Source: Devosia indica (GTDB lineage: Bacteria > Pseudomonadota > Alphaproteobacteria > Rhizobiales > Devosiaceae). Taken from it: a DNA stretch of 64,000 nucleotides. The stretch's first letter is position 1. Each line of letters begins with the position of its first letter. Position numbers and translations under genes: made by a program. The notes under the pieces are model-generated. The model did not search any database. It was not told where the DNA came from and saw nothing but the letters and a program-made list of their open reading frames with translations. Positions 40,691 to 42,728 of the stretch are shown piece by piece. The stretch lies in NCBI RefSeq assembly GCF_003056405.1, contig NZ_PYVZ01000012.1, positions 62,001 to 126,000 on the forward strand, written 5' to 3'.

Positions 40691-40714
40691 CCATATAAAG
40701 CTTTCTTTATATGG
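40691..40714. promoter_or_regulatory. AT-rich perfect inverted repeat upstream of metK
   Basis: CCATATAAAG (40691-40700) and CTTTATATGG (40705-40714), exact complements around CTTT. It is AT-rich in a GC-rich region and lies about 110 bp before the metK start, so it may be an operator or part of the promoter rather than an RNA hairpin. Confidence 0.45.
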
Positions 40715-40757
40715 CTCTTGCTTTCCCGGCCCGGACCTGCGAAGAACGAGGCTGAAA

Positions 40758-40825
40758 GTGTCCGGCATAACGGCCGGACACGCGCACTCCCGCGTGCGCC
40801 CTCGCCACTTGCAAAGAGGTTTAAC
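40758..40825 (+). ncRNA. Structured leader of metK with hairpin over the ribosome site
   Basis: Three hairpins abut with no spacer: GTGTCCGGC / GCCGGACAC (40758-40781), GCGCAC / GTGCGC (40782-40799), and CCTC / GAGG (40800-40819), where GAGG is the metK ribosome site. Further upstream are CTTGCC / GGCAAG (40648-40667) and CTTGGC / GCCAAG pairs. Such a leader could control translation of SAM synthetase. It does not show the SAM-II core that I know from alphaproteobacterial met genes. Confidence 0.5.
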
Positions 40826-42082
40826 GTGGCCCGTTCCAACTATCTTTTCACCTCGGAATCCGTTTCCGAGGGGCATCCTGACAAGGTATGCGACCGTATT
40901 TCCGACGAAATCGTCGATCTGGTGTTCAGGGAGGCCAAAAAGGCCGGCATGGACCCTTCCCAGGTCCGCATTGCCTGCGAAACCCTGGCCACCACCAACC
41001 GCGTGGTTATCGCCGGTGAAGTGCGCGTCCCGCAAACCCTGCTGAAAAAGGGCAAGGACGGCCAGATCGTTACCGATGCATCCGGCGCCCCGGTGGTCAA
41101 TCCGTCCCGCTTCAAGTCGGCCGCCCGCAAGGCCATCCGCGCCATTGGCTATGAGCAGTCCGGCTTCCACTGGAAGACCTGCCGCATCGATGTGCTGCTC
41201 CATGGCCAGTCCGCCGACATCGCCGTCGGCGTGGACGAGGCCGGCAACAAGGATGTTGGCGCCGGCGACCAGGGCATCATGTTCGGCTATGCGGCGCGTG
41301 AAACCCCCGAGCTGCTGCCCGCCCCGATCTATTATGCGCACAAGATCCTGTCCTCGCTCACCGAGGCCCGCAAGGCCAATCACGGTCCTGCCGGCAAGCT
41401 TGGTCCCGACGCCAAGAGCCAGGTGACGGTGCAGTATCGCGACGGCAAGCCGGTCGGCGTCACCCAGATCGTGCTTTCGACCCAGCACCTGGACGAGACC
41501 CTGACCTCCGAGGATGTGCGCAACATCGTCGAGCCGATTGTCCGCGCCGCCCTGCCCGAAGGCTGGATCAGCGACGAGACGGTCTGGCACGTCAATCCGA
41601 CCGGCAAGTTCGTTGTTGGCGGTCCCGATGGCGATGCGGGCCTGACCGGCCGCAAGATCATTGTCGATACCTATGGCGGCGCTGCCCCCCATGGTGGCGG
41701 TGCCTTCTCGGGCAAGGATCCCACCAAGGTGGATCGGTCCGCGGCCTATGCGGCGCGCTATCTCGCCAAGAACGTGGTGGCTGCGGGCCTGGCCGATCGT
41801 GCCACCATCCAGCTCTCCTATGCCATCGGTGTGGCCAAGCCGCTCTCGATCTATGTCGACCTGCATGGCACCGGCAAGGTGGACGAGGCGGTGCTGGAAA
41901 AGGCGCTGGCCGAGGTGATGGACCTGACCCCGCGCGGCATCCGCACCCATCTCGATCTCAACAAGCCCATCTATGCCAAGACCGCCGCCTATGGCCATTT
42001 CGGCCGCAAGGCCGGCCGAGACGGCAGCTTCTCCTGGGAGAAGACCGACCTGGTCAAGGCGCTCAAGGCCGCAGTGGCGTAA
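40826..42082 (+). CDS. metK: S-adenosylmethionine synthetase
   Basis: 418 residues, the longer alphaproteobacterial form. Makes SAM from methionine and ATP. Signatures: [14 protein letters not shown] (ATP), [12 protein letters not shown], and [16 protein letters not shown] (the P-loop-like segment, shown in part). The start is GTG at 40826, with AGAGG 6 bp before it. The 255-bp region upstream is rich in hairpins. trmB, which I recall next to metK in Hyphomicrobiales, is separated from it by a toxin-antitoxin pair. Confidence 0.96.
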
Positions 42083-42139: not shown

Positions 42140-42156
42140 CAATCCGGCAAGGATTG
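42140..42156. promoter_or_regulatory. Inverted repeat before the DUF433 antitoxin gene
   Basis: CAATCC-GGCAA-GGATTG, perfect 6-bp arms ending at the first G of the GGAG ribosome site. Could be an autoregulatory operator or a small RNA hairpin touching the ribosome site. Confidence 0.35.
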
Positions 42157-42165
42157 GAGCCTGAC

Positions 42166-42399
42166 ATGTCGGAAGAACCACGCGAGCCAAAGATTGTCTC
42201 GACCCCGGGTATTGTCGGTGGGCGGCCTCGCTTGTTGGGGACGCGCATAACGGTTCAGGACATCCTTGGCGCCCTTGCGGCCGGCGACACGATTGATGAA
42301 TTGCTCGAAGATTTCCCCTATCTCGAACGGGAAGATTTCGCTGCCGTGCTTCGCTATGCGGCCGACCACCTCGACCACAAGGGCGTCGCCGCCGAATAA
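42166..42399 (+). CDS. DUF433 antitoxin
   Basis: 77 residues. DUF433 winged-helix-like fold: GRPRLLGTRITVQDILGAL and the helical part DTIDELLEDFPYLEREDF. Such proteins are found just before DUF5615 PIN-like toxins and should neutralise them and repress the operon. ATG 42166 with GGAG 6 bp upstream. The stop overlaps the toxin start (TAATG). Confidence 0.85.
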   Translation: MSEEPREPKIVSTPGIVGGRPRLLGTRITVQDILGALAAGDTIDELLEDFPYLEREDFAAVLRYAADHLDHKGVAAE

Positions 42400-42728
42400 T
42401 GAAGTTTCTCCTCGACGCCAATCTTCCGGGGAAACTGGTCGGCGTGTTCATTTCGGCCGGGTATGAATGTGTGCATATGGAATCGCTGATGCCACGCTAC
42501 GCTGCGGACACAACAATTTCCCGAATTGCGAATGAAACAGGTGCCGTTGTGGTCAGCCGCGACGCGGATTTTGCGCAACTGGTCCGAACAGGTGCTCTCA
42601 AGGTACCGCTGGTTTGGGTGCGGCTGGGCAATATGAGGCGAGCCGCAATCGCGGCAACCATCGAAGATCGACTCCCCGCAATCGTCAAGGCGATCGAGGC
42701 GGGCCAACAGATTGTTACATTACGTTGA
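42399..42728 (+). CDS. DUF5615 PIN-like toxin
   Basis: 109 residues. Mut7-C/PIN-like nuclease fold: FLLDANLPGKL (first Asp), DTTISRIA (second), and VVSRDADFAQL (Asp pair), giving the acidic metal site expected of an RNase. Partner of the DUF433 protein, with a one-base overlap. It sits between metK and trmB and its stop codon overlaps the trmB start. Confidence 0.85.
   Translation: MKFLLDANLPGKLVGVFISAGYECVHMESLMPRYAADTTISRIANETGAVVVSRDADFAQLVRTGALKVPLVWVRLGNMRRAAIAATIEDRLPAIVKAIEAGQQIVTLR

Follow-up and report, generated by a model that had tools for sequence, protein, structure and literature searches.

A Conserved Candidate SAM-Responsive RNA Element Occupies the Predicted 5′ Untranslated Region of metK in Two Genera of One Alphaproteobacterial Family

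The predicted 5′ untranslated region (UTR) of metK in the window, the 64,000-nt stretch of DNA analyzed as a whole, together with metK codons 1 and 2 (40754–40831, + strand), makes up a conserved structured RNA element. A covariance model recovers 32 copies of this element, every one of them at metK, and Rfam has no match to it. With confidence somewhat better than even, we propose that it represents an undescribed class of cis-regulatory RNA, most likely a small translational SAM riboswitch and less likely one that responds to SAH or methionine. A first-pass annotation had suggested an undescribed SAM- or methionine-responsive RNA or another translational control element at this site. The covarying, Rfam-less, metK-restricted structure and its ability to mask the ribosome site bear out that suggestion, whereas SAM as the ligand is what we infer. 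The gene itself (40826–42082, + strand) starts with GTG and encodes a methionine adenosyltransferase, as assigned by the TIGR01034 equivalog model (466 bits versus a cut-off of 309). Just 3′ of metK (42154–42728), the window encodes a DUF433 protein and then a DUF5615 PIN-like protein, a toxin–antitoxin-like pair.

Three stems that follow each other without a spacer, the last pairing CCTC with the GAGG ribosome site of metK, had been described in the first-pass annotation, and both features are present exactly as described. P1 (40758–40781, + strand) joins GTGTCCGGC (40758–40766) to GCCGGACAC (40773–40781) with 9/9 pairs, P2 (40782–40799, + strand) joins GCGCAC (40782–40787) to GTGCGC (40794–40799) with 6/6 pairs, and P3 (40800–40819, + strand) joins CCTC (40800–40803) to GAGG (40816–40819), with zero bases between successive stems. 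The fold energy of the leader (40744–40840) lies 4.5 SD below that of dinucleotide shuffles, none of which (0/200) is as low. Three other interpretations of the leader were rejected. An outer stem in the single-sequence fold, GAACGAGGCC...GGCCCGTTC, is not conserved in relatives and lies upstream of the predicted transcript start; an alternative stem, CACGCG:CGCGUG, shows no covariation and is disrupted in several sequences; and a leader peptide is at odds with out-of-frame length variation in P1.

Across 32 metK leaders of one family, probably Devosiaceae, the common element is 69–79 nt long and has a fixed order: a 5′-terminal GAAAGU, the covarying P1, the invariant P2, the CCUC that pairs with GAGG in P3, UUUAAC, and GUG-GCC. 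The GAAAGU (40754–40759, + strand), which coincides with the predicted transcript start, is invariant in 32/32 copies; its GAAA (40754–40757) is unpaired and its GU opens P1. P1, at 9 bp, varies in sequence while 97.7% of its cells remain paired. P2 (GCGCAC/GUGCGC) is nearly invariant, with 98.9% of cells paired and little variation. The leaders contain a conserved, covarying structured RNA in the 5′ UTR of a pathway gene, a general trait of metabolite riboswitches, and masking of the ribosome site by CCUC–GAGG pairing is possible in every copy, in one of them through a C-G to U-G change. A possible further helix, P4 (40804–40830, + strand), would pair GCCAC (40804–40808) with GUGGC (40826–40830) and span the start codon. 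In P4, 94.4% of cells are paired, with three compatible one-sided changes and no double changes, and the helix is mostly lost in one leader (L258). P3 and P4 cross each other in pseudoknot fashion, and P4 could form a pseudoknot with P3 or be an alternative to it.

Comparative evidence for the structure is concentrated in P1. In an alignment of the 32 copies (29 distinct rows) that was fitted to the P1–P3 model, and whose counts therefore lean towards the P1–P3 helices, the whole structure contains 55 doubly changed cells versus 19.4 in shuffles, and its covariation score of 0.232, versus 0.104 in shuffles, is reached by 0/500. An initial MAFFT alignment made from sequence alone agrees with this. 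Sliding the partner strand abolishes the covariation signal, and the top pairs in a structure-blind mutual-information scan (9–24, 10–23, and 13–20) all belong to P1. Judged from these comparisons, P1 is a real RNA structure, because its pairing persists through double-sided changes at 6/9 pairs. Conservation and complementarity support P2 and P3; the covariation support lies in P1 only. Covariation and conservation of the stems in relatives, the test that had been named for the original observation, is strong across the 32 leaders.

The distribution of the element was examined in metK leaders gathered from the window's genus, its family, and 80 named genomes. The same element was apparent straightaway in 23 leaders, and the covariance model was built from these. 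Scanning 136 genomes of the family with this model gave the 32 strong copies, 19 of them in the window's genus; the other 13 come from a second genus, with one copy in each of its 13 genomes. No other gene in the 136 genomes carries the element. No copy was found at E 0.01 outside the family in non-exhaustive, strictly filtered samples of the order (397 genomes), class (385), and phylum (398), and rescanning the order sample with a second model again gave none outside the family. The 80 other named metK loci, the viral contigs and plasmids that were scanned, and 92 other leaders of the same family likewise contain no copy, and no diverged copy was seen in the family's RNA-less leaders. Weak model matches (E 0.007–0.08) were taken as chance; all that were examined fall within or next to other reading frames.

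The RNA-less leaders of the family have features of their own. RNAalifold gave no common fold for them. The last 55 nt before the start often contain a small hairpin, GCTC-GTTTT-GAGC or GTGCGA-TTT-TCGCAC (e.g., L152, L166, L174, and L175), with a T-rich stretch 3′ of it, and these hairpin-bearing leaders are possibly a second leader type. In some RNA-less leaders, a CCCCT near the predicted start could pair with the AGGGG of the ribosome site.

The first-pass annotation had also placed further stems upstream of the three hairpins. A strong stem does exist at 40691–40714, but it is not part of the RNA; it is a DNA operator upstream of the predicted promoter. This 24-bp palindrome, CCATATAAAG-CTTT-CTTTATATGG (no strand assigned), ends 3 bp before a –35-like hexamer and recurs before methionine-cycle genes. 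A genome scan allowing ≤3 mismatches finds it at four places only, metK, sahR-metF, metE, and metH, with 0 matches for the reversed control, and a variant stands before ahcY. The sahR gene, beside metF, encodes a protein with an ArsR helix-turn-helix and a methyltransferase domain. With a shared palindrome and an ArsR-type regulator present, the palindrome is a SahR operator and metK a member of the SahR regulon, whose core was described by Leyn et al. as sahR, ahcY, metH, metF, and metK (PMC4239095). The regulon resembles that SAH-responsive, ArsR-family system in covering sahR-metF, metH, metE, ahcY, and metK here (PMC4239095). SahR works on promoter DNA, however, whereas the metK leader RNA lies downstream and is separate. 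Besides metK, the five-box regulon comprises loci L018 (1000–2885), L019 (3117–3138), L020 (4001–4022), and L261 (before ahcY). At metE (L019, 2889–3138), the SahR box is stacked with a cobalamin riboswitch (RF00174, 117 bits), which parallels the layering of DNA and RNA control at metK.

Between operator and element lies a predicted promoter (40718–40746, + strand) that consists of TTGCTT (40718–40723), 14 nt, TGC (40738–40740), and GAAGAA (40741–40746). The same arrangement, at constant spacing, was parsed in 30 RNA-bearing leaders as a –35-like TTG(C/A)NN, 14 nt, TG(C/T), and a hexamer such as GARAAG, with GAAAG following the –10-like hexamer at a distance of 7 nt (8 nt in one copy). RNA-less leaders have TTGACC-14-TGn-CACAAA equally far from the same upstream palindrome. 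A scan for the plain sigma-70 consensus did not score the predicted promoter. Because RNA-less leaders keep the same spacing from the same palindrome, the conserved hexamer pair very probably constitutes the promoter, with transcription beginning at GAAAG. With the start predicted at GAAAG, the element would constitute the complete 5′ UTR plus two codons. Transcription starting downstream of the hairpins, which had been named as evidence that would count against an RNA element, is not indicated by the sequence, since the predicted start falls at the element's 5′ edge.

These arrangements bear on whether the inverted repeats act solely in DNA, as protein operators, and form no RNA structure. 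The palindrome at 40691–40714 is such an operator, and its position is constant upstream of almost all of the family's metK genes, RNA or not, most of which lack the RNA. P1, however, changes in sequence and stays paired, which is the reverse of how a DNA site behaves, and it lies downstream of the predicted transcript start. We regard a purely DNA-level role as extremely unlikely.

The element is constrained well beyond its helices. Identity between the two genera is 93% in the core versus 47% in the P1 arms and loop. The unpaired GAAA and UU.AAC lie within this extremely conserved core, a pattern that would be expected of a binding pocket plus switch. GUG-GCC forms the start and second codon in every RNA-bearing copy of both genera, whereas RNA-less leaders of the family vary both (alanine codons: GCA 22, GCG 20, GCC 16, GCT 9). 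Fixation of GUG-GCC is limited to RNA-bearing leaders, so the RNA seems to restrict which codons begin the gene; the sequences behind this pattern are related and nonindependent, though both genera show it. The invariance of the core speaks against a constitutive 5′ structure that affects mRNA stability or serves as a ribosome standby site, RNA thermometer, or small-RNA target with no metabolite sensing. A hairpin chain that ends on the ribosome site does resemble thermometer layouts, and P1 and P2, being stable, could shield the 5′ end. However, neither stability nor melting needs an invariant primary sequence in the core, whether paired or unpaired, the G+C content of P1 and P2 is too high for melting, and neither ROSE nor any other Rfam family matches. 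A constitutive role is thus very improbable.

In the second genus, MetK groups with that of Parvibaculum, far from the window's type; the two types are ∼67% identical. The gene upstream of metK is lnt-like in the second genus (named from its translated sequence) versus rnd in the window's genus. Operator, promoter spacing, and RNA core are nevertheless identical in layout before both MetK types at these nonsyntenic loci. Because the same cassette precedes two diverged MetK types at different loci, the leader was either retained or transferred as a whole, with the gene or locus changing behind it. This points to a function that does not depend on the coding sequence. One genome of the window's genus (G072, loci L168 and L169) has two metK genes, one per diverged type, and is possibly an intermediate in metK exchange behind the leader.

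The cassette also informs the possibility that the element is a translational operator for a protein, in which MetK or an RNA-binding regulator recognizes GAAAGU-P1-P2 and hinders or promotes ribosome loading independently of any small-molecule ligand. A protein site would explain the strong conservation of the core and the masking of the ribosome site equally well, and confinement to two genera, which is unusually narrow for a metabolite riboswitch, suits a lineage-specific protein. Binding by MetK itself is made less likely by the occurrence of the same RNA before both MetK types, and no other gene carries the element. We consider a protein operator unlikely.

Metabolite-binding RNA of a known class does not account for the leader. 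The Rfam search that had been recommended finds no family that matches the window's metK leader, even at permissive thresholds (E up to 10), and ten homologous loci give no match at E up to 1. Searches of open-licence papers found no report of a metK riboswitch in Devosia or of a further SAM class. The SAM/SAH riboswitch (RF01727) is known from Rhodobacterales. Like the metK leader as proposed here, it is alphaproteobacterial, almost always at metK, and translational, and one strand of its pseudoknot contains the ribosome site (PMC7367207; PMC4239095). It consists, however, of one hairpin plus a pseudoknot, as opposed to three abutting stems with a 5′-terminal GAAAGU, and the leader does not match its covariance model in sequence or structure. 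SAM-VI and SAM-III (SMK) also reside in metK leaders and hold the ribosome site within their structures, SAM-VI including the start codon as well (PMC6914780). Both are three-way junctions closed by an outer stem, whereas the metK leader has no conserved enclosing stem and no Rfam match. SAM-II (SAM-alpha, RF00521) is likewise a SAM-sensing RNA of alphaproteobacteria, but the leader does not match its model, in agreement with the earlier remark that the SAM-II core is absent. The only genome-wide SAM-II match (C5:32857; L260, 1501–1576; 56.5 bits) stands before a metZ-like gene, not metK. Because of this riboswitch, SAM-sensing RNAs are probably in use in the window's genome, with the metK leader being something else.

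Our analysis allows a mechanism for the proposed SAM riboswitch to be outlined. P1 and P2 would form a stacked scaffold beside the conserved 5′ tail GAAA, and SAM bound near GAAA, P1, and P2 would stabilize P3 and perhaps P4. CCUC would then capture the ribosome site GAGG, GCCA(C) would probably capture the GUG start codon, and metK translation would be shut off. Without ligand, the weak P3 would open and ribosomes would load. P3 alone amounts to about –3 to –4 kcal/mol, so ligand help is plausible, and no intrinsic terminator lies inside the element, making translation the likely level of control. In ligand-free energy calculations, P4 competes with P3; because it is favored in most copies, the resting state may already be partly closed. 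SAM is proposed as the ligand because it is the product of MetK and because the SAM/SAH and SAM-VI riboswitches, which stand before metK and sense SAM, cover the ribosome site upon ligand binding (PMC7367207, PMC6914780). A riboswitch of the same architecture for methionine, SAH, MTA, ATP, or a metal ion is quite improbable. MetK links SAM, methionine, and ATP, and the SahR boxes indicate that this regulon monitors SAH (PMC4239095); on the other hand, the precedent among RNAs restricted to metK is product feedback by SAM, and SahR already reads SAH at this promoter.

A more specific proposal, to which we give an even chance, is that the element is a new SAM-sensing riboswitch class with its own fold, defined by end-to-end P1-P2-P3, a 5′-terminal GAAAGU, and a knot of ribosome site and start codon, which is limited to two genera within a single alphaproteobacterial family and forms a cassette there with a SahR-controlled promoter. 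Several unrelated riboswitch folds for SAM are known, and another independent fold would speak directly to the frequency with which RNA evolves binding pockets for one cofactor. At about 78 nt for an entire 5′ UTR, the candidate is very small; it has an obvious first ligand and comes with natural variants that aid design. If the proposal of a new class is true, product feedback by SAM would act on top of SahR-controlled transcription from the adjacent upstream operator, leaving metK responsive to SAH through DNA and to SAM through RNA. This gene would then exemplify layered control by a SAH-responsive promoter repressor and a translational RNA, in a cassette kept or moved between two unrelated metK loci.
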